DNA from: a virus
Length of the DNA: 37,474 bases
Strand: one strand, 5' to 3'
IMG/VR virus record: IMGVR_UViG_3300006071_000035
Location: 1 to 37,474 of that record
Shown here one piece after another: positions 5,126 through 32,424 of the stretch. How positions within the stretch are numbered: the stretch's first letter is position 1; each line of letters opens with the position of its first letter. The position numbers and the translations under genes are program-made. Below the pieces are notes generated by a model. It did not search any database. It was not told the DNA's origin and was given only the letters and a program-made list of their open reading frames with translations.

Positions 5126-5149
5126 CATATTATAAAAAACTATAATATG
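5126..5149 (-). repeat. Inverted repeat at the end of the 495-aa gene
   Basis: Two 9-base arms (CATATTATA and TATAATATG) form a perfect AT-only hairpin with a 6-base loop. The stop codon of the upstream gene (5140-5142) lies inside it. No T-run follows on the minus strand, so it may protect or pause the mRNA rather than act as a strong terminator. Confidence 0.5.
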
Positions 5150-6627
5150 ACCCTACTACCTATTAAGAAATTTTGTAATATGGGAGTACCAGGTTGTGTT
5201 GAGCCACTCATCTTATAATTGAAAGAAAATCCAAACCTTTTACTTATTTTATAGTCGAAAGATGCACCTGTCAAAAATCCCATATGTCTATTAACCATTG
5301 TTGCTCCCGTCACACTATTCCAACCTATCGGTGCAAACATAGTAAATATTTGTGGTGATATTGTTAATTTTGGGCTATACTGATATGGTTTAGTCCAAAA
5401 TACTACTGTCGATGTATTCATACTATAACCAAAACCACCATGTCCATTTGGTAAAAATAAATTAATTAAACCAACATTATATCCATAAGTTCCATGTACG
5501 ATATCTGGTTTAATCCATGTATATCCTAATAAGTTCATATATGTTCCATTCAAATATGCAAATGCAGTTGAATAAGAATTAATTGCGTTTAGTTGTCCGT
5601 TTTCGAAATCCATTTTTGTATATCCACCACCTAATACAAATTGTTTAAGATTTGAATATATCATTGATGTTCCACTCCAACTTTCATCACCCGCCATAGA
5701 TGATTGAGATATACCGACAGTTATTGCTGCAGAATATTTACCATCTGCTCCTTGTGCTGTTGTTAAGTCAGATGCTAACAATAATGGATTTAATGCTCTT
5801 TGTTGTTCTTTCTTTTTTTTCTCCTCTTCTTTTTTCTTTTCTTCTTCTTTCTTTTTTTCCTCCTTCTTTTGGTCATCTTTCTTTTCATCTGATTTTTTAC
5901 TTTCAGATTTACTTTCGGATTTTGAATCACTTTTACTATCTGATTTAGTTTCTGCCGGTTTGTCAGAAGATTTACTATCCGAAGATGCTGCCGGTTTACT
6001 ATCTGATGAAGAACTACTACTTGATGAAGATGAACTCGAAGATGATGAACTACTACTTGCCGGTGGTGGTGTATCTCCCCCACTACTTGTAGAACTACTA
6101 CTTGCAGGAGGTGGTGTATCAGTTCCTCCACTTGTAGAACTGCTACTTGCCGGAGGTGGAGTTGATGCCGGCGGTGGAGGTGCTGCGGCAGTTGCTGCTG
6201 AACTACTTGCTGCCGAACTTGCACTACTACTTGCGGCAGATGATGCTGAACTACTTGCTGCCGAACTTGCAGCTGCTGATGCGGCTGAACTTGCTGCTGA
6301 ACTTGCAGCTTGTGCTGCGGCATTTGTTGCGGCTTGTGTTACGACAGTAGTTACGACTGTATTAACAGGACAAGCCATTGATTGATATGTTGCGTATGTA
6401 GTTTGTAACCATGCTTGCAACAATCCCAACTGAACTTGTTGTGGTGTGAATGTTTGTATTTGATTGTAAAATGAAACTACTGCGTTTCCGTTTACATATG
6501 TTGTGGTTGCTTTAACAGTCTGACCTGTACACTTATCTATAAAAGTTTGGGTATAGGTTTGTCCTATCGCTTTATTTGCGAATAAGAATGTAACAATTAT
6601 GAATAAACTTGCTAACCATTTTTTCAT
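5140..6627 (-). CDS. Exported Ala/Ser-Pro/Ser-Lys/Glu low-complexity protein with beta-rich C-terminus
   Basis: A 495-residue protein. Residues 1-22 are a signal peptide (MKKWLASLFIIVTFLFANKA, then IGQ). Residues 24-88 form a small domain with two Cys. Residues 98-148 are Ala/Ser repeats. Residues 149-192 hold three TPPPASSSS-type units, and 190-208 are poly-Ser. Residues 209-275 are Ser/Asp/Lys grading into a Lys/Glu helix. Residues 280-495 look like alternating amphipathic strands rich in Gly, Tyr and Phe, like an outer-membrane barrel or beta sandwich. I infer an envelope anchor with a long rod or linker. It is last in the 8228-5140 gene set. Exact function unknown. Confidence 0.75.
   Translation of the reverse strand: MKKWLASLFIIVTFLFANKAIGQTYTQTFIDKCTGQTVKATTTYVNGNAVVSFYNQIQTFTPQQVQLGLLQAWLQTTYATYQSMACPVNTVVTTVVTQAATNAAAQAASSAASSAASAAASSAASSSASSAASSSASSAASSSAATAAAPPPPASTPPPASSSSTSGGTDTPPPASSSSTSSGGDTPPPASSSSSSSSSSSSSSSSSSDSKPAASSDSKSSDKPAETKSDSKSDSKSESKSESKKSDEKKDDQKKEEKKKEEEKKKEEEKKKKEQQRALNPLLLASDLTTAQGADGKYSAAITVGISQSSMAGDESWSGTSMIYSNLKQFVLGGGYTKMDFENGQLNAINSYSTAFAYLNGTYMNLLGYTWIKPDIVHGTYGYNVGLINLFLPNGHGGFGYSMNTSTVVFWTKPYQYSPKLTISPQIFTMFAPIGWNSVTGATMVNRHMGFLTGASFDYKISKRFGFSFNYKMSGSTQPGTPILQNFLIGSRVIL
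6004..6336 (-). repeat. Low-complexity coding repeats (Ala/Ser and TPPPASSSS units)
   Basis: Within the 495-residue gene, DNA encoding residues 98-208 consists of imperfect AASS codon repeats, three copies of a roughly 13-residue TPPPASSSSTSGG unit, and a run of about 18 Ser codons. Synonymous codons are mixed, so the repeat is kept at protein level more than at DNA level. Repeat-number variation between isolates is likely. Confidence 0.75.
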
Positions 6628-6632
6628 TTATA

Positions 6633-6935
6633 TTAGTGTCTGCCTCTAAATCCACCTCTAAATCCACCTCTAAATCCACCACCAATTCTAATAGGAACTA
6701 CTACACTTGGTGCCCAATATGGATATAAAATTCCATTATAATAATAAGGTGTGTTTACATATACTTGAGTTGATACAGGAGTACCATCTGCATATGTTCT
6801 AGTTACAATTTTAACTTCTTTACCAGTACTGTCTTTTGTGATTGTTTCTGTAACACTATAAGGTCTTTCCGCTTGATAAGGTGCTACACAACCTACCATA
6901 AATACTACTGCTAATAATCCTAATACTTTTTTCAT
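6633..6935 (-). CDS. Small lipoprotein with GGFRGGFRG tail
   Basis: A 100-residue protein. Residues 1-16 (MKKVLGLLAVVFMVGC) form a lipoprotein signal with Cys16 as lipidation site. The middle holds two short beta segments (T-E-T-I-T-K-D-S and V-K-I-V-T-R-T-Y-A-D-G), then a Tyr/Pro-rich stretch. The C-terminus has three G-G-F-R repeats and ends RGRH. The layout resembles small Bacteroidota and proteobacterial surface lipoproteins with YXXG or GFRG tails. It sits between other exported proteins, 5 bases upstream of the 495-residue gene. Probably outer-membrane anchored; role unknown. Confidence 0.7.
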   Translation of the reverse strand: MKKVLGLLAVVFMVGCVAPYQAERPYSVTETITKDSTGKEVKIVTRTYADGTPVSTQVYVNTPYYYNGILYPYWAPSVVVPIRIGGGFRGGFRGGFRGRH

Positions 6936-7508: not shown

Positions 7509-8228
7509 TTATTTAGTGAATACACCTTTTTTAACCATTTTATTTAATATATTTGCACATGCTATATCTAATGCTTTTTTAGTTGCAATTGAAATAGTAG
7601 ATTGATTGAATTTTACAGGGTCAACTGTCGCATCTGAAAGGAAAGTTAATTCTCTTGTAGTTTTAGCTTCTCCCAATCCACTTGCTGCAATGATTGTTCC
7701 ATTCTCCGCATCTGTAAATCTAACTTGTAAACCTATTCTTGTTACCATTAAATTTTTAACACCATTCTTTAAGTTTACTTCTTCATCTTCCGATACTGAA
7801 TAATCATAACATTCAATTTCAACAAAATAATGTGCTAATCTAATTTTACCCCTACCATCCAACTTATCTTGCGAAATACCTGCCTGCGAAGCTTGAAACT
7901 GCTTAACCATACGATTTTTAATTTCAGTTTTGTCTTCTGTAAATGTAAATCGATTAAGATTATCAAGATACTCCAGTGTAATATTAGCCACACCCAAACC
8001 GACACGTTTTTCTTTAAGTTCGGGATATTGTTCGTACATTTCATCACTTATTCCACATTTTAATAATTGAATTGGGATTTGAGGTCCATCATAATTCATA
8101 AATTGTGAGATATCACTTTTTGTTTCAAACGATGCCTTAAACTGTTCTGTTTTTGTGGAACCAATTGTTTGACTATTTGCAACAAGACTTACTAAAAATA
8201 CGCTTAATAATATAAATAATTTTTTCAT
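7509..8228 (-). CDS. Exported CsgG-like protein (candidate)
   Basis: A 239-residue protein. Signal peptide at residues 1-19 (MKKLFILLSVFLVSLVANSQ, Bacteroidota-type SQ cleavage, no lipobox). Residues 75-120 (V-G-L-G-V-A-N-I-T-L-E-Y-L-D-N) and 128-180 (alternating strands with V-E-I-E-C-Y-D-Y and L-Q-V-R-F-T-D) give the alternating strand/helix pattern of CsgG-type curli-export channels. A C-terminal helix (S-I-A-T-K-K-A-L-D-I-A-C-A-N-I-L) matches that family's repeated-helix end. CsgG homologues are known from T4-like cyanophages. It would sit in the periplasm or outer membrane. The match is by pattern only; a generic periplasmic protein is the alternative. Confidence 0.5.
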   Translation of the reverse strand: MKKLFILLSVFLVSLVANSQTIGSTKTEQFKASFETKSDISQFMNYDGPQIPIQLLKCGISDEMYEQYPELKEKRVGLGVANITLEYLDNLNRFTFTEDKTEIKNRMVKQFQASQAGISQDKLDGRGKIRLAHYFVEIECYDYSVSEDEEVNLKNGVKNLMVTRIGLQVRFTDAENGTIIAASGLGEAKTTRELTFLSDATVDPVKFNQSTISIATKKALDIACANILNKMVKKGVFTK

Positions 8229-8496: not shown

Positions 8497-9219
8497 TTAA
8501 CTTTTATATAAATATACATTATTTTCTTTATCTACTAAAATTGCTGATAGGTTTTCTACCCAATCACCACTATTAACATATCTTTTACCATTTATCATTC
8601 TATCCTCTGGTTGATGAATATGTCCACACATTACTCCATCACATCCTTTTTTAGTTGCCATAGATAATGCAGTTGTTTCAAAATCATTTATATAATTAGT
8701 TGCAGCTTTAACACCACCTTTTATTTTTTGTGATATGGATTGATATGGTAAATTTCTCCATTTTCTATAATGATTATACCAACGATTAAGTGTAAGTGCA
8801 AAATCATATCCTATTGAACCTATTTTTGCCAACCATTTATACTTTGTTATAAAAACATCAATAACATCTCCATGGAAAATATAGTAACTCTCCATAGAAT
8901 TATGTAAGTTAAGAACATAATCTTCTCTAATTTCCACTCCACCAAAATGGTTTCCCATAAATTCATGTAAGAACTCATCATGATTTCCTCTTATCCAAAT
9001 AATTTGTGTTTTGTTTGAAAGCTTTAGTAGTTTAGATATAACTTTAGTATGTTGTTTTTTCCATTTAGCTCCTCTATTGATTGCCCATCCATCTATAATA
9101 TCTCCATTAAGAATAAGGAGATCAGTTGGATGTTTTTCAATAAAATCTAAAAATTCTTCTGCTTTACTATCTTTTGTTCCTAAATGTAAATCCGATACGA
9201 TTACTGCCTGATATTTCAT
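8497..9219 (-). CDS. Calcineurin-like metallophosphoesterase (LpxH-like)
   Basis: A 240-residue protein starting at the ATG at 9219, which overlaps the previous stop as ATGA. All metallophosphoesterase motifs are present: S-D-L-H-L-G at residues 8-13, N-G-D-I-I-D-G at about 38-44, R-G-N-H-D-E at about 77-82, H-G-D at about 119, and G-H-I-H-Q-P at about 205-210. The order, the Y-N-H-Y-R-K insert and the length match UDP-2,3-diacylglucosamine pyrophosphatase LpxH and its Bacteroidota relatives. A lipid A-directed or nucleotide-sugar role is possible, but the family is broad. Confidence 0.82.
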   Translation of the reverse strand: MKYQAVIVSDLHLGTKDSKAEEFLDFIEKHPTDLLILNGDIIDGWAINRGAKWKKQHTKVISKLLKLSNKTQIIWIRGNHDEFLHEFMGNHFGGVEIREDYVLNLHNSMESYYIFHGDVIDVFITKYKWLAKIGSIGYDFALTLNRWYNHYRKWRNLPYQSISQKIKGGVKAATNYINDFETTALSMATKKGCDGVMCGHIHQPEDRMINGKRYVNSGDWVENLSAILVDKENNVYLYKS

Positions 9220-9911
9220 GTCCAATAGTTGTGATGTTGTTTAAAGAAATTTGTGTTGTTTCGATTGATATAGCATTTTATACTGATTAAAAACATATAG
9301 AAAAATCCTTTATTTTTAAATCTTCTTGCCGATGTCCATACTCCTTTGGTATTATGTATTTTCATTACATCTGCTTTTTGTGATACCCAATAATCTTCTG
9401 CAAATAAATGTGTTTCATCATACCCACCGGTTTTCCAATATGCTTCAGTTTTCCATAATTGAAATCCACCTATGGCAAATGGTGTTCCTAACCAATTACT
9501 CATTTTTTGTTGAATATCAAATAAACGAAATATCCAATTAAACCCTTCTTCTGTTTGAAATGGAACTGTCACCAAATCTGTATTATATGCTAAACATTCA
9601 CCTAATACAAATCTATTTTGCAACATTATATCAGCATCTAAAAAAAGAATATAAGGTGTAGTTACTAATTTACTACCGTTTAAACGTGCTTTAGCTGGAA
9701 ATCCACCTTCGATAATTTCAATATTTAAACAATACTTAAAATCTCTTTTAACATAATATAAAAAATCTAAGCTATCACCTTCATCGGAAGTATCTGCAAT
9801 AATAACTCTAGTTCCTGCGAACCCCACTTGCTTTGCAATAAATCCAATACACTCATATATGTTATCCTTTTCGTTTTTACACGGTATTACTATTGTTAAT
9901 AAGTTATTCAT
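9216..9911 (-). CDS. Family 2 glycosyltransferase
   Basis: A 231-residue GT-A enzyme. N-terminal L-T-I-V-I-P-C-K-N-E is the family-2 first strand. F-L-D-A-D-I at about residue 92 is the D-x-D motif. G-G-F-Q-L-W-K-T ... G-G-Y-D-E-T-H-L-F-A-E-D-Y at about residues 145-170 is the acceptor loop with the catalytic E-D base. No membrane helix. It begins just past a terminator and is coupled to the LpxH-like gene through an ATGA overlap, which hints that both act on the same glycan or lipid. Confidence 0.83.
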   Translation of the reverse strand: MNNLLTIVIPCKNEKDNIYECIGFIAKQVGFAGTRVIIADTSDEGDSLDFLYYVKRDFKYCLNIEIIEGGFPAKARLNGSKLVTTPYILFLDADIMLQNRFVLGECLAYNTDLVTVPFQTEEGFNWIFRLFDIQQKMSNWLGTPFAIGGFQLWKTEAYWKTGGYDETHLFAEDYWVSQKADVMKIHNTKGVWTSARRFKNKGFFYMFLISIKCYINRNNTNFFKQHHNYWT

Positions 9912-9921
9912 AGGTATAAAT

Positions 9922-9949
9922 AAAAAACCCCCACTAATTGTGAGGGTTT
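9922..9949 (-). terminator. Intrinsic terminator of the exported-protein operon
   Basis: On the minus strand AACCCTCAC, a 5-base loop and GTGGGGGTT form a 9-bp stem (one G-U pair) followed by six T. It lies 17 bases after the stop of the 92-residue membrane protein, closing the 15589-9967 operon before the next glycosyltransferase. Confidence 0.9.
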
Positions 9950-9966
9950 CTAATGTTAATTAATTA

Positions 9967-10245
9967 TTAACCTAATTCTTCAGTTGGTGCTGCCGGTGTT
10001 GTTGGTTCATCTGCAGGTGCCTTCTTACTGAATTTGTCTAAACTATCAGCACCCATACCGATTGCAGTTATAACCATTACAGCATCAACTAGCTTATCAG
10101 ATGGAGCGATATCTTTAGCAGAATAGCTATTCGCAATCATAGTGATACATAAAAATAATGCACCAAAAAATGCGATAACTGGTTTTACTGAAATTGCACC
10201 TCTTTCATCTTTGAAAAGGTCAATTACCCATTCTTTAAAAGTCAT
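9967..10245 (-). CDS. Two-span small membrane protein, holin-like
   Basis: A 92-residue protein. An amphipathic N-terminus (MTFKEWVIDLFKDERG) is followed by two hydrophobic helices at residues 21-42 (V-K-P-V-I-A-F-F-G-A-L-F-L) and 50-67 (K-L-V-D-A-V-M-V-I-T-A-I-G), then a Pro/Thr/Ala/Glu tail. D-E-R/K-G then two helices is common in small membrane proteins of phages of this host range, sometimes annotated as holins. The start has a strong AAGGAG site (AATAAAGGAGTAACAAG). It is the last gene before the terminator. No lysin is visible nearby, so holin is only a possibility. Confidence 0.65.
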   Translation of the reverse strand: MTFKEWVIDLFKDERGAISVKPVIAFFGALFLCITMIANSYSAKDIAPSDKLVDAVMVITAIGMGADSLDKFSKKAPADEPTTPAAPTEELG

Positions 10246-10277
10246 CTTGTTACTCCTTTATTGTTTGTTATTGAATA

Positions 10278-10643
10278 CTACCATTGAGCAGGCTTCTCTT
10301 TGAACTCATCACCTTCTTTCTTTTTAGGTTTTGGTTGTTCTGATTTTTCTGCTTTTTTTACATCTTTGTCAGCCGGTCCTTTTTCTTTAATAATAACAGT
10401 CTTACCTGCCGCTGCTTGTTGTTGTGCTGGTATGTTGATGTTAATACTTTGTGGTTGAACTTGTTTGTTTTCCCCTTCTTTTGGTTTTTGTAAGTATGTC
10501 ATTAAAAATGCACCACCTGCCGTTACCAATGTTCCGACAGTTCCTATAATAGTTTTTTTCAAACCACTCATAGTTCCATCATTGTGTTTTTCGTTTTTAG
10601 CCATTGCCTCATCCGGCGTTTGCTCTTTTTTTGCCTTTGCCAT
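10278..10643 (-). CDS. Single-span membrane protein with Lys/Pro-rich tail
   Basis: A 121-residue protein. Residues 1-28 are basic and hydrophilic. Residues 29-50 form one membrane helix (K-T-I-I-G-T-V-G-T-L-V-T-A-G-G-A-F-L-M). Residues 52-121 are Pro/Gln/Lys-rich and extended. An N-in topology would put the tail in the periplasm, a layout reminiscent of inner-membrane spanin or envelope-linking proteins. It lies 6 bases downstream of a lipoprotein gene, which would suit an inner-outer membrane pair, but no coiled coil is visible. Function unassigned. Confidence 0.6.
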   Translation of the reverse strand: MAKAKKEQTPDEAMAKNEKHNDGTMSGLKKTIIGTVGTLVTAGGAFLMTYLQKPKEGENKQVQPQSININIPAQQQAAAGKTVIIKEKGPADKDVKKAEKSEQPKPKKKEGDEFKEKPAQW

Positions 10644-10649
10644 AAATTA

Positions 10650-11030
10650 TTATATTTTGTTAAAATCTGTTATTGCCAATAAATTACCTTTACTATCATA
10701 TACTGCCAATCTATAAGCTGCTGTTGGTAATGCTGCTGCATAAACCGTCAATATATTATCTCCACTTATTACATCGGAAGTTGATTTAGATACTACTCTA
10801 TTTGCAATATCTAATATTTTTACAGTCACAGTCTGTGCTGCATCACTTTTAACATTCATTTTAACATCAGTTGTTACGAATGTTGTTTGTAATGCTACAC
10901 CTACCGAAGATGTAATTGTTAATGGATTTTGTGCAGGATTAGATACTACTGAATCGATTGATTTTCTACAACTCAATGCGATTAAAGATACTAAAAATCC
11001 TAATCCTAATATTTTATCTATTCTTCTCAT
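10650..11030 (-). CDS. Lipoprotein with type IX sorting-domain-like beta module
   Basis: A 126-residue protein. Lipoprotein signal at residues 1-21 (G-F-L-V-S-L-I-A-L-S-C, then RKS). Residues 65-126 read V-T-V-K-I-L-D-I-A-N-R-V-V, then G-D-N-I-L-T-V, A-L-P-T-A-A-Y-R-L-A-V-Y-D and G-N-L-L-A-I-T-D-F. This order matches the C-terminal sorting domain of Bacteroidota type IX secretion substrates (the usual pattern is V-x-I-Y-D-x-x-G, then L-P-x-G-x-Y). Having both a lipid anchor and such a domain is unusual. Co-translated with its neighbours in the 15589-9967 operon. Confidence 0.65.
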   Translation of the reverse strand: MRRIDKILGLGFLVSLIALSCRKSIDSVVSNPAQNPLTITSSVGVALQTTFVTTDVKMNVKSDAAQTVTVKILDIANRVVSKSTSDVISGDNILTVYAAALPTAAYRLAVYDSKGNLLAITDFNKI

Positions 11031-11031
11031 T

Positions 11032-11382
11032 TTAATTTATTATTATTGTTGTTTTACTTATTTTATTTTTTGTAACATCTTCCAATAACAGATATAAATA
11101 TTTACTTTCTATTCCTTTAGTGTATATTTTCTTTTTATTTATTCCAATTTGTCCATTAAATCTTTCTCTTGTCACAACTTGGTTGGTAATTGTATCGGTC
11201 AAACTTAATGTATACACCCCATCTTTAGTTAAATTGAATTGTATTTCCTGTCCATTTGTAATACTATTTTGTGCATTATCAAATACATTATTAGTTTTTA
11301 CTTGTACCGGTGCTACTAATACTTTTTGACAAGATATTATAAAAATGATACAACAAGCTATTATAATTTTAATCCATTTCAT
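11032..11382 (-). CDS. Small lipoprotein, beta-sandwich
   Basis: A 116-residue protein. Signal with lipobox at residues 1-18 (C-C-I-I-F-I-I-S-C, then QK). The remainder is beta-rich: I-Q-F-N-L-T-K-D-G-V-Y-T-L-S-L-T-D, then V-V-T-R-E-R-F, then L-Y-L-L-L-E-D-V and a final K-T-T-I-I-I-N strand. The arrangement is like its neighbour at 10650-11030, so the two may be diverged paralogues. The ATG overlaps the stop of the PA14/cohesin gene (TAATG), so translation is coupled. Probably an outer-membrane partner of the two large exported proteins. Confidence 0.62.
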   Translation of the reverse strand: MKWIKIIIACCIIFIISCQKVLVAPVQVKTNNVFDNAQNSITNGQEIQFNLTKDGVYTLSLTDTITNQVVTRERFNGQIGINKKKIYTKGIESKYLYLLLEDVTKNKISKTTIIIN

Positions 11383-13274
11383 TAGTTTACCACCACTTTT
11401 AATTGTCTTCCATTTTGATTAACTGCATCCGTTGCACCTATTGATATTAACCCCAATATATTATCTAACTTTGTATTAGCTAAAAATGATAGTGTGTATT
11501 GTGTTGTATTATCCAAAGTACCACCATTTGTAAGTAATGAACCTACACTAATATAAGTACCCTTATCAGTTGCGTAATTAGTAGGTGAACCTTTTGTAGT
11601 GAACTTTACTCCATTAAACTTTAACAAAGAATTATCATAGTTTAATTGGAATTGTGTACCAACTAAAGATTGTGTCAATGGATCTATGGTAATATATGCG
11701 TAAATACTATCACCCACCATTTCAGTTAAGATAGATGCATTGATTTGATTGGTAATACTCGTTGATTTTAATGCCATTGTTGTATAACTATTCGATATAG
11801 GTGTTGTTGAATGTGATAAGTTTACATCACCTTTCCATGCTACTGCCAAATTTAATGTATCGGTTGATTTACCTGTGTTTATATCAAATGTATATGAACT
11901 ACCCAATGGTAATGTAAATCCATTCCAATTAGATTTACCAATCATATCGTATGTTGATTGTGGTATAATTCTTAATGTTTTATTTAAATTGAATGTATCT
12001 ACTAATGGTTTTGCACCTGTCAAATTTTGTAATAATAAAAAACAATCTGTTTCATTGAATATACCATCATTATTAATATCCGCATTTTGATATTGAATAC
12101 CATATGTAAATTCATTTCCACTTTGATTACCAAATAAACCAACATTTGCTACTTCTTTAAATGCCAAATACACATCCGAAACCGTTACAATGCTATTATA
12201 TAATGTTGTTAAATTGTTTGTAGTTGATACCGATATTGTTTGTGGTTTGTAGATTTGATTTGCTGTAAATCCTACATTACAAGAGAATGCATAATTACTA
12301 TATCCTGCATTTCTTATATTTGAATTATATGTTGAACTACCATCTGTTACTTTTGGTAGTGTTGATGGAATAGTATAATGTGCCCAATAGATATCACTAC
12401 TTTGATATGTTACCGGTCCATTATATACATCCAATATTGAAACACTATTAACTGTCGATGGTGTTGTGTTGCCAAATTCTCTTAAATCTATATAAAGAGT
12501 TGTTGTTCCATTAGATATATTCACATAACTCCATTCGGTTTGTCCGGCGGTAATTCCTGCTTTATATCCATTTACAATTTTATTACTATCTAATTGATTT
12601 GTAATATCAACCGTACCTGTTGAACTCAATGTATTTCCTACTGAAAATTTAGTTGCATCTATATTTGTATTGAAATTAAAATCAACCAATCCCTTTTTAG
12701 TTGGTGATGCAGGTGGAGTTGAATATACTTCATCTCCTTGAGTTGTGTATGTTGTTTGTGAAGGTCTTTTCCAAACTAAATACATACCCCATCCACCACC
12801 CCAGTTTTCAAATCTTGCCATAAAGGTATAAGATTGACCTGCGACTAAATTTACCGAACCATATCTATAACCACCAAATCCATGTGGTCCATAATAAGAT
12901 ATTACAACATTTCCATTCAAAGAAAAATCTACACCATCATCTCCATCAATACCAAATATGTATGTTCCCGTTTCTTTTGGGACAAAATATCCAGTTATTT
13001 TAATACCAGTATAATTGGCCCCATTGGGAAGTCCAGAAGGTTGCCAACTACCATTGAAATATAATGTTTTTGCTGCTGTTGATGTTCCACTTGCATAAAT
13101 CGTTGCACCCTTTGTAACATCAAACATATTAACAAAATCATTTGCATTATTAGCATATTGGCCTGCTCCATTACTAATAATATTATAGACCGTATAATTC
13201 AAATAACCCACTCCTTGAGAGTAGGTTATTATTGAACTAATTAATAAAAATAATATAAGAAGTAGTTTCTTCAT
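11382..13274 (-). CDS. Exported PA14 / dockerin-like / cohesin-like protein
   Basis: A 630-residue protein. Signal peptide at residues 1-20 (ending I-T-Y-S-Q). Residues 22-172 form a PA14 (carbohydrate-binding) domain: G-T-Y-I-F-G-I-D-G-D-D-G at 103-114, then Y-T-F-M-A-R-F-E-N and M-Y-L-V-W. Residues 185-345 are an unassigned beta domain. Residues 362-420 are dockerin-like, with a calcium-loop motif D-I-N-N-D-G-I-F-N-E-T-D at 399-410. Residues 510-630 resemble a cohesin domain (V-G-D-S-I-Y-A-Y-I-T-I, then G-T-Q-F-Q-L-N-Y-D). The C-terminal half parallels the upstream gene's product. Both ends overlap neighbours as TAATG. Probably cell-surface or virion-surface scaffold. Confidence 0.72.
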   Translation of the reverse strand: MKKLLLILFLLISSIITYSQGVGYLNYTVYNIISNGAGQYANNANDFVNMFDVTKGATIYASGTSTAAKTLYFNGSWQPSGLPNGANYTGIKITGYFVPKETGTYIFGIDGDDGVDFSLNGNVVISYYGPHGFGGYRYGSVNLVAGQSYTFMARFENWGGGWGMYLVWKRPSQTTYTTQGDEVYSTPPASPTKKGLVDFNFNTNIDATKFSVGNTLSSTGTVDITNQLDSNKIVNGYKAGITAGQTEWSYVNISNGTTTLYIDLREFGNTTPSTVNSVSILDVYNGPVTYQSSDIYWAHYTIPSTLPKVTDGSSTYNSNIRNAGYSNYAFSCNVGFTANQIYKPQTISVSTTNNLTTLYNSIVTVSDVYLAFKEVANVGLFGNQSGNEFTYGIQYQNADINNDGIFNETDCFLLLQNLTGAKPLVDTFNLNKTLRIIPQSTYDMIGKSNWNGFTLPLGSSYTFDINTGKSTDTLNLAVAWKGDVNLSHSTTPISNSYTTMALKSTSITNQINASILTEMVGDSIYAYITIDPLTQSLVGTQFQLNYDNSLLKFNGVKFTTKGSPTNYATDKGTYISVGSLLTNGGTLDNTTQYTLSFLANTKLDNILGLISIGATDAVNQNGRQLKVVVN

Positions 13275-14944
13275 TACTCAATATTCAGGTTAATTTTATT
13301 ACCACTTGCATCAACTGCATCGGCTAGTACAAAGAAAAATAAACCTGCTGTATTTGATAAAGGAACTTTTGGTGTAAATGTTAATGTATACGGAGTTCCT
13401 GTTTTAATTCTAGCAGTTTTAATTTGGTCAATTGAACCAAATGTTAATCTTCCGTTATTGTGAGTTGAGAAGTTTGTTATCGTGCTTCCTGCATCAAATG
13501 TTACATTATCTAAACTCAATTTAGTAGAATCATAATTCATAATAACTTGTAAACCTGCTAAGTTTTGTTTTGTTAAATTTGCAGTTAAGATTACTTTACC
13601 ATTTACAATTGATGAATTGATGTTTAAGTTTGCGGTATCTAATGGAGCTGGTTCGTATGCCAATGTTGCATTAGATGCTATTGCAAATGATTTAATTGTA
13701 GCGGAAGCTGTTGGTATTACTTTATCAGAATTTGTATAAACACCATTATTAATACTTACATTAATTTGTGCCGGTGATGGAGATTCATTAAATGCCATAT
13801 CACCACCCCATGCATATACTGCGTTGACTGTTTGATTTGGTGAAGTTACATAAATTCTATAAGTAGGTGTGCCATCTAACCAACTTTGATTTAATAATCC
13901 ACTATGCCATGCTATATTTGTTGCAGTTGATGTCGGGATATTTGCTACTGAACTCATATCTTGCCCCATTACATATGCAAATAAATAATAAGGGTCTTTT
14001 TCAGTAAATGCAGTATCACCTTTACCAACCATACCAATCATTTTTTCCAATTTAGGATATGTCCAATATGTTTGTGCACCGGTAATATCGGTTTGTGAAA
14101 TGCCTAAGAATGCTTTATATGCATCTGCAACAGTCACAATATTATCCATAAATGTTTTTTGATAAGCTGGAGTAATAAATACACCAACACTATCACCCAC
14201 TTTAATACCAGATGTGAATGTTACCATACCACTTGCATCCAATGAACCTACTTTAATTGGTTGTTGAGTCCAATCAATACTACCATCTGCTTTAACATGC
14301 ATCAATTGAACATTGTGTTGATTAATATTTGTATATGTTGATGGATATAATACTTTAATAGTAAATGCCGATGTTGCTCCTGTGACAGTTCCTAATGAAA
14401 GTGTAGATTGTGTTGTTGTTACACTTGATATGTTTGCTCCAGTTGCACTATCCAACGCATATGCTAAATCCAATTTGTGAACATTTGAATAAGAAGCGAT
14501 ATCTTTTAATACAAATTTTTGAGTTGCTAATGTTCCTGTAATTGCTTTATCCGTTCTTTGAACTGTCAATTGTCCAACATTGTTTCCAGTTGTTGATACA
14601 TAATTCCAAGGAGTATGTCCATATTGTCCATACAAATCAGTTGTTGCTGAATTTGCGTTTGGATTGAATATATAATTTGTCCACTCATAAAAATATGTTT
14701 GAGTAGAGTTACCTTGTCCAAATGTCGTGCTGTTAGATACCATACTCATTGCTGTTGAATTGTATTGGTATCTCAACCACACATATCTTGCTCTGGATAC
14801 ACCACTCACATTATAAGTTACCGTAATGGTATCACCAACTTTCAAATTAGTTGATGGTGAGTATGATTGGTTAATTACTAATTGACTAAATGATGATATA
14901 GATATTAATAAAAATACCCCTACCAATCCTAATAATTTTTTCAT
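13274..14944 (-). CDS. Exported cohesin-like protein, paralogue of the PA14 protein
   Basis: A 556-residue protein. Signal peptide at residues 1-21 (ending S-S-F-S-Q). Residues 22-190 form a cohesin-like domain (L-K-V-G-D-T-I-T-V-T-Y-N-V, then V-W-L-R-Y-Q-Y-N). Residues 190-262 are a linking domain. Residues 264-330 parallel the dockerin-like region of the neighbour (N-I-V-T-V-A-D-A-Y-K-A-F ... F-T-E-K-D-P-Y) but lack its calcium loop. Residues 440-556 form a second cohesin-like domain ending L-A-D-A-V-D-A-S-G-N-K-I-N-L. The ATG directly follows the previous stop and has a GGAG site. Predicted to pair with the neighbour through cohesin-dockerin-type contacts (inference). Confidence 0.7.
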   Translation of the reverse strand: MKKLLGLVGVFLLISISSFSQLVINQSYSPSTNLKVGDTITVTYNVSGVSRARYVWLRYQYNSTAMSMVSNSTTFGQGNSTQTYFYEWTNYIFNPNANSATTDLYGQYGHTPWNYVSTTGNNVGQLTVQRTDKAITGTLATQKFVLKDIASYSNVHKLDLAYALDSATGANISSVTTTQSTLSLGTVTGATSAFTIKVLYPSTYTNINQHNVQLMHVKADGSIDWTQQPIKVGSLDASGMVTFTSGIKVGDSVGVFITPAYQKTFMDNIVTVADAYKAFLGISQTDITGAQTYWTYPKLEKMIGMVGKGDTAFTEKDPYYLFAYVMGQDMSSVANIPTSTATNIAWHSGLLNQSWLDGTPTYRIYVTSPNQTVNAVYAWGGDMAFNESPSPAQINVSINNGVYTNSDKVIPTASATIKSFAIASNATLAYEPAPLDTANLNINSSIVNGKVILTANLTKQNLAGLQVIMNYDSTKLSLDNVTFDAGSTITNFSTHNNGRLTFGSIDQIKTARIKTGTPYTLTFTPKVPLSNTAGLFFFVLADAVDASGNKINLNIE

Positions 14945-15589
14945 TTATTTCTCCGATAGTTTTGTGATTAGCTTGTCACAACCTTTTTTAAGTGCATTAC
15001 TTAAACTTGTTTGATTGAAACTACCACCTTCGTCAACTATCAATGTGCTCATTGAAATTTCAGATGAGGACTCTTCTACTATAACTACCTTATCCTTTTT
15101 ACCTTGAGATTTTAATACACCTCTCAAACGGATAACAACTTCCGCTTCACCACTATGTAAAACGGAAATATTTTTCTTTGTATTTAAAACATCTAAAAAG
15201 ATGATTTGAACTGATAATTTGTTTGGTGCATTTGGAGATAAATTATATCCCTTATCTTGTAAATATTCTTCTAAAATATTCTTAACACCAAATTCTAATT
15301 TTCTATTACCAGCTAACTTACCTATTTTAACTTCGTTAGTTACACTTTCTACCCAAATTTGTTCATCTGCATTATACCAAATGTTACCTGGACTATTTTT
15401 GAATGTTCCATCAAATTTCCAGCTAAATTGATTTGCTAATGATTGTTCTTGGCCTTCCCCACCAAAAAAATGCAAACCAACTGCATATAATGAAAAACAT
15501 AGTGCAAATATAACCCATGCACCAAATAAACTAAGGATACCTATTTCAAAATAGTGTTTCCAATCAATTTTTAATAACTTTGCTTTCAT
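14945..15589 (-). CDS. Membrane-anchored periplasmic protein
   Basis: A 214-residue protein with one N-terminal membrane helix at about residues 13-38 (F-E-I-G-I-L-S-L-F-G-A-W-V-I-F-A-L). A soluble domain follows, with alternating strands and helices (L-S-V-Q-I-I-F-L-D-V, A-E-V-V-I-R-L-R-G-V-L) and a final helix (L-S-N-A-L-K-K-G-C-D-K-L-I). The shape recalls YajG- or CsgG-type periplasmic domains. A clear AAAAGGAGTTAAC ribosome site precedes the ATG. First gene of the 15589-9967 operon, so it may be the inner-membrane component for the exported proteins that follow. Family not certain. Confidence 0.6.
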   Translation of the reverse strand: MKAKLLKIDWKHYFEIGILSLFGAWVIFALCFSLYAVGLHFFGGEGQEQSLANQFSWKFDGTFKNSPGNIWYNADEQIWVESVTNEVKIGKLAGNRKLEFGVKNILEEYLQDKGYNLSPNAPNKLSVQIIFLDVLNTKKNISVLHSGEAEVVIRLRGVLKSQGKKDKVVIVEESSSEISMSTLIVDEGGSFNQTSLSNALKKGCDKLITKLSEK

Positions 15590-15638: not shown

Positions 15639-16127
15639 TCAGATTTTTAATTTTAAGGATGTTATCAATTTCTTTTCGATACCATATTTGTTGCAAATAT
15701 TAAGAATTTGTTCTCTACCATTTTTAGTTGAATATAAAATTTCCAAATAATCATTTGCTTCTTTTGTTGAACATTTATATTCTTTAACAATTAAATCAAC
15801 TATCCAATCTTCGTAATCATTTGCTTTTCTACCTTTAATATATTTTAAATAATATTTTTTAGGTGGAATCATATCAATAAAAAAACGATAAAAATATTCA
15901 TTAGGTAAAGATTGAATATATGGCTGAACATCTGCTATCCATTCTATCCAATCTGGGTTCATTGATAGATACCTCTGAATAATAAAATTGCCAAACGTTT
16001 TTTTATCATCATCAGAAATATTTTTCCAATAATTTGGGTCTTGATATTCAGTTACAGCTGAGATATGGTCAAATAAACCCAATCTCTTTGCTGTAACTTC
16101 TTTTATTTCTTTTTTAGTTTTCGCCAT
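15639..16127 (-). CDS. 62: Clamp loader small subunit (T4 gp62-like)
   Basis: A 162-residue protein, close to T4 gp62 (187). The segment I-Q-R-Y-L-S ... Y-F-Y-R-F-F-I-D-M-I-P-P-K-K-Y-Y-L-K-Y-I-K (residues 49-100) is the family's most recognisable block. It is followed by V-D-L-I-V-K-E-Y-K-C-S-T-K-E-A-N-D-Y-L-E-I-L, which parallels the gp62 end region. gp62 joins four gp44 subunits to load the sliding clamp. The gene overlaps the zinc-ribbon gene by 14 bases and lies downstream of the gp44 homologue, which supports the call. Confidence 0.75.
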   Translation of the reverse strand: MAKTKKEIKEVTAKRLGLFDHISAVTEYQDPNYWKNISDDDKKTFGNFIIQRYLSMNPDWIEWIADVQPYIQSLPNEYFYRFFIDMIPPKKYYLKYIKGRKANDYEDWIVDLIVKEYKCSTKEANDYLEILYSTKNGREQILNICNKYGIEKKLITSLKLKI

Positions 16128-16371
16128 TATCTGGTCTTAATTCTTTTGGTAATAAATCTTCTAATACTTCACCACAATCAATACATAAATAAATTTCTAC
16201 TGGAATAACTTGTTCCTTTCCACTTGCACTTGCTAATGCACTTTCTTTTCTAAAATGTAATCCAGGTGAAAAGAATTGTCCTCCACATTTACATTCAATT
16301 GCGGTTGTTTTACTTAAATCTGCTGGTGCTTGTTGTGATTGCCCTAACTTGCTTAAATCCATTGGTTGCAT
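16114..16371 (-). CDS. Small zinc-ribbon protein
   Basis: An 85-residue protein. Residues 27-29 (C-K-C) and 63-66 (C-I-D-C) form a split C-x-C ... C-x2-C metal site typical of a zinc ribbon; the intervening region carries F-F-S-P-G-L-H-F and short strands. The first 20 residues are Gln/Pro-rich and flexible. The gene lies between the GroES-like and gp62-like genes and overlaps the latter, so it is part of the replication transcript. Could be an accessory factor for replication or late transcription; nothing in the sequence decides. Confidence 0.65.
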   Translation of the reverse strand: MQPMDLSKLGQSQQAPADLSKTTAIECKCGGQFFSPGLHFRKESALASASGKEQVIPVEIYLCIDCGEVLEDLLPKELRPDNGEN

Positions 16372-16381
16372 AATATATGTT

Positions 16382-16690
16382 TTATCTAATTACTAATAAT
16401 AAGTCCATTTCTCTACACATAAAGTAGTCCTTATCTCCTAACTTAATCTTTTGTACTGCCATTTCACTTGTTGGTAATAATACTTTATCACCTACCTTTA
16501 CTGTCATAGGAACTTTAACACCACCCTGTGTATAAACCCCGTCACCCGTTGCTACTACTTTTGCAATTTTGTTATCACCTGTTTTTACTGAATCTGGGAT
16601 AATAATACCACCAATTGTTTTTTCAGTAACTTCAATCTCTAATAATAATCTATCTCCAATTGGTTTTGCTAATTGAAACTCTTTATTCAT
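16382..16690 (-). CDS. groES: GroES-like co-chaperonin
   Basis: A 102-residue protein, the usual Cpn10 length. It shows P-I-G-D-R-L-L-L-E at residues 10-18, the GroEL-binding mobile loop T-E-K-T-I-G-G-I-I-I-P-D at about 22-33, A-K-V-V-A-T-G-D-G at 43-51, V-G-D-K-V-L-L-P at 66-73 and a final C-R-E-M-D-L-L-L-V-I strand. It should cap the host GroEL and help fold phage proteins, as gp31 does for the T4 capsid, but here the sequence is plainly GroES-like. It lies 5 bases after the clamp loader gene. Confidence 0.9.
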   Translation of the reverse strand: MNKEFQLAKPIGDRLLLEIEVTEKTIGGIIIPDSVKTGDNKIAKVVATGDGVYTQGGVKVPMTVKVGDKVLLPTSEMAVQKIKLGDKDYFMCREMDLLLVIR

Positions 16691-30791: not shown

Positions 30792-31715
30792 ATAAAAATA
30801 AGGATGAGAATACTCCATATTGTGAACCAGCTTTAGAAAGATTATTTGTTTCCTTCCGTTTCCACACCCTTTTGAGATGTACCAATTCAATGTGGGTTAA
30901 TTGAGTCAACCAATCTTTGAGTTATAAACTACTCTCTTTTTACTACGCTTCTTCAAATCTGCCGACCTGATTAAACCTTGCGGGTCTAGAAGTTTTTCGA
31001 AAGAATCACAGACTTCTTGCGGAAGTATCGTGGCTGAGAACGGCTCTCAACTATGTACACACCTTTCGTTTATAACTGGCAAACACTTAAGCTTTAAATT
31101 TAATTTATGGTTTGCACCGAAAGCAAATTATAAGTTTAGTTTGTAGAATTATTCAAGTAGTGGTTTGCCACCAGCTCCGTTATCTTTTGAACAACAGAAT
31201 ACTATACTACTCGATGCAATATCCCTATTGCGTTATTTTGAGTCATCTTCGAATATAGGTTTTGGTAAACTCTATATAAGGATAGTAACAGCACCACCTG
31301 TACACAGTCTTATCTTACGTCCTTTCGGATAGCTTGATGTTAAGACCACTCTTATAATGAATACCGCAATAATGTAAAGGGATTAAGTTTACACTTCTTA
31401 CTGATATTCTATGGGTTATTCTTATTGGTGTTCCCACCTCAACCAAAGTATCTACAATACCCCAGTTACTCAAACTCTTCGATGATAGTGTTACCCCCAT
31501 CTACAAAGCCCAAATAATATCCCACTTGCCTACTCAAGCTAATCTCTCCTTACGGGGAGAGTAGCCGCAAATGCACCACTTAAGTACACTCACTTTATCC
31601 TACTTTCGTAGTTTATTTAACCACCATAGGCGGCGGTTATCTATTATGTAACACAAGGTTACTAGATAGAATATTTTTAATAATGTTAAAGAACTACTTC
31701 GTTGTTATATATATG

Positions 31716-32014: not shown

Positions 32015-32020
32015 ATATTG

Positions 32021-32351
32021 TGGAGATGACGAGACTCGAACTCGTGTCTTACAAAGAACTAATAATACCAGCATATCACACGTTTAGGTTAAAGTTTAAT
32101 CTTATAAACTTTCCAAAATAATTGAGGTCGTATGGTTAGTACAACTTTCCACCAATATATTGTTTAGGTACAACATATAAAACCTTTGTAGGCACTTCTG
32201 TTACTAGGCGTATGTGCACCGGCCCTATTGTTGCTAACTAAGCTATCGCTAAATCAGCACCTACGAAGTCCATAAGGTCTGCGAAGGTCATTGTTGACAT
32301 TTCGTCGTTTATTGTTTTGTGCAGATTTAAGGAGAACTAGCACTTCTCTCC
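32021..32351 (-). ncRNA. ssrA: tmRNA (ssrA) candidate
   Basis: A 331-nt RNA closed by GGAGA/TCTCC and a canonical T-arm ACGAG-TTCGAGT-CTCGT, ending A then CA like the tRNAs. Between these ends is a reading frame starting at a GCA resume codon (GCA GAC CTT) that encodes ADLMDFVGADLAIA and stops at TAG, a typical length and Ala-rich end for a trans-translation tag. The pair at position 3:70 is A-U rather than the G-U that AlaRS prefers. Pseudoknots were not drawn. A strong promoter lies 74 bases upstream. Confidence 0.7.
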
Positions 32352-32424
32352 ACGTGTGGTACTACTATTTACATTGCAATCAATTCCATAGCATCCCCAT
32401 TATTTCAATGAACTCTTTCTCTTA

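Follow-up and report, generated by a model that had tools for sequence, protein, structure and literature searches.

A phage gene cassette with cohesin folds, a dockerin-type calcium loop and exchangeable heads: a possible surface scaffold on infected Bacteroidota cells

Gene set and layout

The window is a 37 474-nt stretch of viral DNA (positions 1 to 37 474 of IMG/VR record IMGVR_UViG_3300006071_000035), and seven open reading frames on its minus strand, g1 to g7 (Table 1), were all found where the first-pass annotation, made from the sequence alone, had placed them. The coupling of these genes by TAATG overlaps that it described holds at two of the six junctions, g2/g3 and g3/g4, but not at the other four: at g1/g2 a TAA is directly followed by ATG, and gaps of 1, 6 and 32 nt separate g4 from g5, g5 from g6 and g6 from g7. 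The terminator proposed for the end of the set is present (9951-9923, 11-pair stem, -15.8 kcal/mol, T-run), with terminator-like motifs in the region overall showing no excess (4 found, 4.4 expected). Seven genes proved to be an incomplete count. Beyond two inserted genes (9216-9911 and 8497-9225) the cassette extends leftward to at least 5140, and it also has a CsgG-fold protein (o7509), a third lipoprotein, found in few relatives (5 loci), and a barrel-like protein (o5140). g6 and g7, put forward as membrane proteins, do have hydrophobic segments but no strong transmembrane segment by simple hydropathy; a g6-like protein can be discerned by eye in Flavobacterium phage immuto (gp16) and in locus L287. 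Holin identity for g6, g7 and a related 202-aa protein was considered and set aside, the matches being weak only.

Table 1. Features of the cassette and of its two modular proteins, in window coordinates
Feature	Position	Strand	Description
g1	14945-15589	minus	214 aa; predicted inner-membrane anchor, periplasmic YajG/CsgG-like domain
g2	13274-14944	minus	556 aa; predicted exported double-cohesin protein, putative scaffold component
g2 cohesin domain 1	14381-14887	minus	residues 20-188; Z about 13 against 2jh2 and 1g1k
g2 dockerin-like helical region, degenerate calcium loop	13955-14155	minus	residues 264-330; profile-profile alignment to g3 dockerin region; helices in model
g2 cohesin domain 2	13277-13639	minus	residues 436-556; Z 14.7, rmsd 2.1 over 119 residues against 6kge_A
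g3	11382-13274	minus	630 aa; predicted exported; putative sugar-binding head, dockerin, cohesin-like domain
g3 PA14 head	12744-13082	minus	residues 65-177; Pfam PA14 1.7e-13
g3 dockerin-type module, intact calcium loop	12015-12197	minus	residues 360-420; Dockerin_1 0.0038, sub-threshold
g3 C-terminal cohesin-like domain	11385-11774	minus	residues 501-630; homology to g2 cohesin 2
g4	11032-11382	minus	116 aa; predicted lipoprotein, g5 paralogue
g5	10650-11030	minus	126 aa; predicted lipoprotein, T9SS-CTD/DUF3244-like domain
g6	10278-10643	minus	small; one hydrophobic segment; order conserved
g7	9967-10245	minus	small; two moderately hydrophobic segments; order conserved in many relatives
Intrinsic terminator, 3' of g7	9923-9951	minus	
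o7509	7509-8228	minus	239 aa; predicted exported CsgG-superfamily protein
Small lipoprotein, between o7509 and o5140	6633-6935	minus	lipobox VGC in sequence
o5140	5140-6627	minus	495 aa; predicted exported; Ser/Ala/Lys-rich linker, barrel-like C-terminus

Distribution

The gene order together with the exported character recurs in more than 100 IMG/VR contigs, so the cassette is not a chance arrangement. It is present in 12 of the 13 contigs longer than 50 kb, these having been chosen by DNA polymerase alone, and is near-universal in one clade of T4-like jumbo Bacteroidota myophages, widespread very large viruses of freshwater members of that phylum. The phage origin assumed at the outset stands: T4-like polymerase, clamp loader and gp23 occur in all 12 large relatives. 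A bacterial origin was considered and rejected, the single o7509 match among genome contigs being to a 254-kb contig of a Bacteroidetes MAG which carries endolysin and tail-collar-like ORFs and is probably phage. Searches with g2 and g3 by tblastn against the phage collection gave no match. Immuto, an isolated phage whose host is Flavobacterium sp. LMO8, has a reduced version of the cassette.

Cohesins, a dockerin-type loop and exchangeable heads

The cohesin-like domains that had been proposed number two in the AlphaFold2 model of g2 (pLDDT 86), and structural comparison of that model confirms them as cohesin folds, not unrelated ones. At the level of sequence the window g2 falls just short of Pfam cohesin PF00963 (22.4 bits, curated cut-off 24.1), while its relatives exceed the Cohesin cut-off in 9 of 12 genomes, as does g3 in relatives. 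g2 and g3 had been called paralogous, and their C-terminal halves are indeed homologous (hhalign 1.8e-26), but the likeness is limited to that half. PDB sequence searches with g2, g3, g1, o7509 and g5 profiles returned nothing convincing.

The dockerin-like module fared less evenly. The calcium-binding F-hand loop of dockerins, here NAD[IV][ND]xx[DN][GN]xxxNExD, is found in 44 of 45 g3 homologues, but where two complete F-hand repeats were looked for one intact loop was seen, and the window g3 scores 17.8 bits against Pfam dockerin (cut-off 22.9).

The PA14 module assigned to g3 is above the Pfam cut-off, and a DD motif is present in 12 of 12 PA14 heads. Not all g3 proteins have such a head: among phages it is PA14, or a C-type lectin with or without LCCL (Lectin_C being over cut-off in L018 and in immuto gp13). 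The polymerase and clamp loader of L113 are 92% and 93% identical to those of the window, and its 772-aa g3 has a first 136 residues without significant match to the PA14 head. Among PA14-type homologues, the heads furthest apart are 35-43% identical, versus 71-85% for their dockerin region. Such comparisons indicate that the g3 head is exchanged between close phages. Diversification of the lectin by a DGR was rejected, a reverse transcriptase having been sought in 12 records and found in none.

Export signals

Signal-peptide-like N-termini are near-universal among the homologues of g2 (110/111), g3 (102/103), g4 (93/94) and g5 (91/91), and are also present in nearly all homologues of o7509 and in 52 of 55 of o5140, versus 0 of 83 neighbouring replication proteins taken as a control, which supports the export that had been claimed. 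g1 has a hydrophobic segment past residue 25 in 71 of 95 homologues. The two proposed lipoproteins are likewise upheld by a lipobox Cys that is invariant in the g4 and g5 families, themselves paralogous (hhalign 8.4e-18). C-X-K-(D/E)2 is a surface-export signal of Bacteroidota lipoproteins; the g5 family, with K at +3 in 22 of 25 and D at +5 in 16 of 25, resembles it, though the window g5 (CRKSID) is without the acidic pair. T9SS is another route to the cell surface. A T9SS sorting domain over cut-off ends the cohesin protein of immuto (gp15) and of L287, none is present in the window g2 or g3, and g5 homologues match Por_Secre_tail (16/26) and DUF3244 (25/26) at E up to 0.1, mostly under cut-off.

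Might these nevertheless be virion proteins, fibres or decorations with N-termini that resemble signal peptides by accident? Phage adhesins do include C-type lectin and PA14 folds, and L032 and L287 have tail-collar-like ORFs, a sequence pattern seen by eye, close to the cassette. Against this are the near-universal signal peptides, the invariant lipobox Cys, the T9SS signal of immuto and the position of the cassette, which in 9 of 10 genomes (all 10 if one contig is treated as circular) is not within the capsid-sheath interval. The genes do not look like ordinary tail components; a virion role is improbable. In a comparison for late promoters, the upstream regions of 12 capsid genes yielded no motif clear by eye.

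A CsgG-like fold and a barrel-like protein

With identities of 74-85% among relatives, o7509 is a very highly conserved member of the cassette. No Pfam CsgG match was found for it, and neither it nor g1 aligned significantly with the single E. coli CsgG by hhalign; the fold was settled by structural comparison, its AF2 model (pLDDT 72) being matched by Foldseek to CsgG 4uv2 (2.5e-6), with Z up to 11.2, and also to PelC and FlgT, which points to a CsgG-like fold. The model, of moderate quality, has a single long hairpin with a charged tip. A lipobox is present in 4 of 83 homologues, and no CsgA, CsgB, CsgE or CsgF partner was matched among the window genes scanned. g1 comes slightly under the cut-off for Pfam Lipoprotein_16 (YajG; 3.1e-5) and has a short, weak profile match to o7509. 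Judged by its sequence pattern, the C-terminus of o5140 is probably barrel-like, and its homologue adjoins that of o7509 in immuto and L287.

Comparison with known systems

Pelagimyophages and phage Melnitz carry a curli-pore operon, CsgG/CsgF (PMC7029224, PMC9004378). There too T4-like phages of aquatic bacteria have an exported CsgG-type protein beside unknown exported proteins, and tmRNA is common to Melnitz and the present phages. However, the present CsgG-fold protein has no Pfam CsgG match, mostly lacks a lipobox and is accompanied by no CsgF that was found, and the set adds cohesins, a dockerin, lectin heads, lipoproteins and barrel-like proteins. The likeness to cellulosome scaffoldins lies in the cohesin fold (Z 13-14.7) and the dockerin-type calcium loop on exported proteins; unlike a cellulosome, the present set is phage-encoded, with one intact loop and with putative sugar-binding adhesion heads in place of enzymes, no dockerin-bearing carbohydrate-active enzyme having been matched among the cassette genes scanned. 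It might be supposed that a Sus-like or cellulosome-like complex acquires glycans or nutrients for the infected host, and a surface lipoprotein, a barrel and sugar-binding modules resemble one, but the scan of those genes matched neither SusC nor SusD nor any enzyme that degrades polysaccharides, and a TonB-receptor-like ORF occurs in one locus, L050, as a sequence pattern only; this is most improbable.

In immuto (Immutovirus), gp12-gp19 likewise form a cluster, with genes for a C-type lectin, a cohesin protein and a homologue of the CsgG-fold protein (51%) as well as barrel-like and g1-like genes; it differs in being shorter and in the T9SS signal of its cohesin protein. These genes are annotated merely as domain-containing or hypothetical.

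What the cassette may do

The roles first offered were superinfection exclusion, a surface scaffold and progeny release. The evidence favours a scaffold with glycan-binding heads, in and on the infected Bacteroidota cell's outer membrane, with receptor occlusion as the likeliest benefit; we would put the probability of this at about 0.4. g2 and g3 would leave the cytoplasm via Sec signal peptides and clip together through calcium-dependent cohesin-dockerin contacts, a pairing that we infer; the lipoproteins g4 and g5 would tether the whole to the outer membrane; g1, o7509 and o5140 would be, or serve, a trans-envelope station for export or assembly; and the swappable heads, presumably exposed, would bind host surface glycans. 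Phage receptors would then be masked on the infected cell and on debris, blocking superinfection and the loss of progeny by re-adsorption. The broader proposition, held slightly more tentatively, is that jumbo Bacteroidota phages build a cellulosome-like, calcium-clipped scaffold with interchangeable sugar-binding heads outside infected cells. Sec, lipoprotein and T9SS-like routes would be used for this, as would a CsgG-fold station, and the structure would govern who adsorbs. Against a scaffold count the missing T9SS signal of the window g2 and g3, the missing acidic pair of its g5, a dockerin that has a single intact loop and scores under the Pfam cut-off, and, in about 30 of 143 loci, a same-strand endolysin at most 2.3 kb upstream of g1.

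That endolysin means a lysis-linked role fits too, and keeps progeny release alive. The small hydrophobic proteins, lipoproteins, CsgG-fold and barrel proteins would on this account disrupt the outer membrane late, along with the neighbouring endolysin, and the lectin scaffold would focus the disruption at the envelope or mask debris. The endolysin is GH19-type (phrog_181). Many relatives have it as the immediate upstream neighbour of g1, and in 4 of 11 large genomes the distance is about 3 kb or less; a class 3 lipase occurs in 11 loci, with L032 and L073 showing it among the cassette genes; exported nuclease relatives occur in 8 loci, plus immuto gp12; and CsgGF of Melnitz has been proposed as a lysis regulator (PMC9004378). 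However, no holin or spanin family exceeded threshold (g4 against spanin2_2 gave E 0.04, 14 bits versus a 100-bit cut-off), the endolysin is tens of kb off in several genomes, and the cohesins, dockerins and swappable heads are left unexplained. With the endolysin so often directly upstream it is a serious rival, if an unlikely one.

Close to the scaffold reading, and with the same anatomy, is the gluing together of neighbouring cells: infected cells would stick to uninfected siblings or particles, and progeny would find hosts. ‘Sibling capture’ has been proposed for phage curli proteins (PMC7029224), and the T9SS signal and lectins fit adhesion, but Melnitz, with its CsgGF, showed no aggregation (PMC9004378). 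Nothing here separates capture from receptor masking; we consider capture rather unlikely.

Phages are known to block superinfection with a single small protein placed in the envelope of the host. T5 Llp is one phage lipoprotein there, linked to superinfection exclusion (PMC9586334), but it is small, works as a single protein and has FhuA as its target, whereas a multi-protein scaffold with glycan-binding heads is envisaged here. That no such system had been described agrees with the literature searched, in which no conserved, phage-encoded, multi-protein cohesin-dockerin surface assembly was found. If the scaffold reading is true, large phages would be seen to remodel the surface of the host they inhabit, a gene block that has gone unannotated in abundant freshwater jumbo phages would be accounted for, and there would be a handle on how Bacteroidota phages compete and exit outer-membrane cells. 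As immuto is an isolated relative with a Flavobacterium host, that reading is testable now.

Gene layout and conservation

The window, a virus fragment of 37,474 bases from IMG/VR, carries a T4-like DNA polymerase, sliding clamp, clamp loader, 22 tRNA genes, a tmRNA and a GOLLD RNA. Seven closely spaced ORFs and a terminator, the exported-protein cassette of the first-pass annotation, were found as described; its TAATG overlaps occur at g2/g3 and g3/g4 only, the other junctions being adjacent or 1, 6 or 32 nt apart.

Positions in the window, or in the related viral locus named
Feature	Positions	Strand	Remarks
g1	14945-15589	minus	
g2	13274-14944	minus	
g3	11382-13274	minus	
g4	11032-11382	minus	lipoprotein
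g5	10650-11030	minus	lipoprotein
g6	10278-10643	minus	small hydrophobic protein
g7	9967-10245	minus	small hydrophobic protein
Glycosyltransferase and phosphoesterase genes	8497-9911		between g7 and o7509; missing from most relatives
o7509	7509-8228	minus	CsgG-fold exported protein
100-aa ORF	6633-6935		predicted lipoprotein, from its lipobox
o5140	5140-6627	minus	barrel-like exported protein
GroES-like protein (by sequence)	16114-16690		amid clamp-loader subunit genes
GOLLD RNA	30801-31214		288 bits, E 1.3e-81; adjoins tRNA array
tmRNA	32020-32398		phage-encoded; predicted tag DEMSTMTFADLMDFVGADLAIA
Additional gene, L113 (close relative)	9654-10309		~650 bp, separating g2 from g3
TonB-receptor-like and lipoprotein ORFs (sequence pattern), L050	11331-14782		between small membrane proteins and o7509
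Class 3 lipase, L032	13831-14574		inside cassette, same strand

Searches with g3, g2 and g1 found 72, 66 and 55 viral loci respectively, on contigs of up to 335 kb, and the operon recurs in most of them, as the annotation had proposed checking, these having on one strand the order g1-g2-g3-g4-g5-g6-(202-aa protein)-g7-o7509-o5140. The 202-aa protein, present in about 120 loci (L006 and L011 among them) and not in the window, has hydrophobic segments and a zinc-ribbon-like C-terminus with four cysteines, judging by sequence pattern. T4-type capsid protein gp23 is encoded in all 12 large genomes searched. With contigs chosen via DNA polymerase alone, to guard the prevalence figure against circularity, g2 is in 12 of the 13 longer than 50 kb; the remaining one, a 56-kb record, is possibly fragmentary. 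The cassette, which is conserved and clade-wide, lies outside the capsid-to-tail-sheath stretch in 9/10 genomes (10/10 if one linear contig is taken to be circularly permuted).

Modules and exchangeable heads

Modelling of g2, also proposed earlier, gave the cohesin fold twice (AlphaFold2, pLDDT 86), at residues 436-556 (Z 14.7) and 20-188 (Z about 13). Pfam matches of the window proteins to cohesin in g2, dockerin in g3 and a YajG-type domain in g1 fall below curated cut-offs; in 9 of 12 genomes g3, or g2, has a Cohesin match that exceeds its cut-off. PA14 in g3 has a strong Pfam match (1.7e-13). The calcium loop of the g3 dockerin is retained in 44/45 sequences. Because the first half-repeat has no obvious loop, the g3 domain is, on sequence, a 'one intact loop' dockerin, unlike the textbook two-loop form. 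The two proteins, annotated as paralogues, are homologous over g2 263-556 and g3 356-630 (hhalign 1.8e-26), a common tail of dockerin-like and cohesin-like parts.

Among 45 aligned g3 homologues, 12 begin with a PA14-type head of ~145 residues, all 12 with a DD motif; the longer homologues scanned have a C-type lectin region in its place, joined in L018 by an LCCL domain. Identity among PA14-type proteins falls to 35-43% in the heads and is still 71-85% in the dockerin region. The polymerase and clamp loader of L113 are 92% and 93% identical to those of the window, but its g3 is a 772-aa protein, lectin-type by sequence pattern and length. Such exchange would be expected if the heads face host glycans that vary.

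Export and envelope proteins

The signal peptides claimed earlier are predicted near-universally by a simple rule applied to N-termini of homologues (g2 110/111, g3 102/103, g4 93/94, g5 91/91, o7509 81/83, o5140 52/55), against 0/83 among control proteins encoded by these phages (clamp, clamp loader, GroES and methyltransferase). The two predicted lipoproteins were supported, every sequence aligned with g4 or g5 keeping the lipobox Cys; the two are paralogous (hhalign 8.4e-18). The g5 family has Lys at +3 in 22/25 and Asp at +5 in 16/25, resembling C-X-K-(D/E)2, an experimentally defined Bacteroidota surface signal (PMC5080379), a likeness that is only suggestive since the window's own g5 is missing the acidic pair. 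Homologues of g1 usually lack a classic signal peptide and have a hydrophobic segment past residue 25, and g1 is thus probably anchored in the inner membrane.

The protein o7509, very highly conserved in its relatives, gave a model (pLDDT 72) that best matches CsgG (Foldseek 2.5e-6, Z 11.2), followed by PelC, HpaA, FlgT, LptE, TraT and TolB, all envelope proteins. That it forms a barrel pore of its own is doubtful because its modelled hairpin has a charged tip. The g1 fold is probably related, given its YajG-type match and a short profile match to o7509. In o5140 a Ser/Ala/Lys-rich linker precedes a C-terminus of barrel-like pattern.

Distant relatives

The isolated Flavobacterium phage immuto_2-6A has a resembling cluster, gp12-gp19: an exported nuclease (gp12), a C-type lectin with dockerin-like loop (gp13), a protein with a signal peptide that by eye looks cohesin- and dockerin-like (gp14), a cohesin with T9SS type A sorting domain (gp15), a g6-like protein (gp16), an o7509 homologue (gp17, 51%), an o5140-like protein (gp18) and a g1-like protein (gp19). 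A paper on Baltic Flavobacterium phages refers to neither immuto nor cohesin nor mass spectrometry. L287 belongs to a Bacteroidetes MAG; this 254-kb contig, which also encodes a GH19 endolysin and tail-collar-like ORFs, looks like a phage with a distant version of the cassette, and its 642-aa cohesin protein ends in a T9SS domain. No other single feature points as clearly to surface delivery as this domain; within the window's clade neither g2 nor g3 has it, and g5 alone bears a weak resemblance.

What the cassette may do

A link to lysis has gene position as its strongest fact: a GH19-type endolysin lies no more than 2.3 kb upstream of g1 on the same strand in about 30 of the 143 loci whose upstream sequence is long enough, at times only 70-370 bp away, and within about 3 kb in 4/11 large genomes, though relatedness among these loci, some of them duplicates, keeps the count from being an independent test. 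A class 3 lipase occurs in L032 and 10 further loci, in L073 also inside the cassette on the same strand.

No phage cohesin-dockerin system was described in the literature searched, though this covered few subscription papers or preprints and such absence is weak evidence; phage CsgGF is the nearest precedent. The component folds are all known, and the novelty would lie in the assembled anatomy. The reading that accounts for most facts is that the cassette would build a scaffold on the cell surface, with interchangeable heads that would bind glycans. Aggregation of sibling cells, earlier proposed for phage curli genes (PMC7029224), would fit such a scaffold nearly as well as receptor masking. 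We place masking first because the heads vary while the remainder of the cassette is fixed, and because single lipoproteins mask receptors in phage T5 (PMC9586334); the exchangeable g3 heads, carried on the scaffold, would then mask phage receptors at the host surface.
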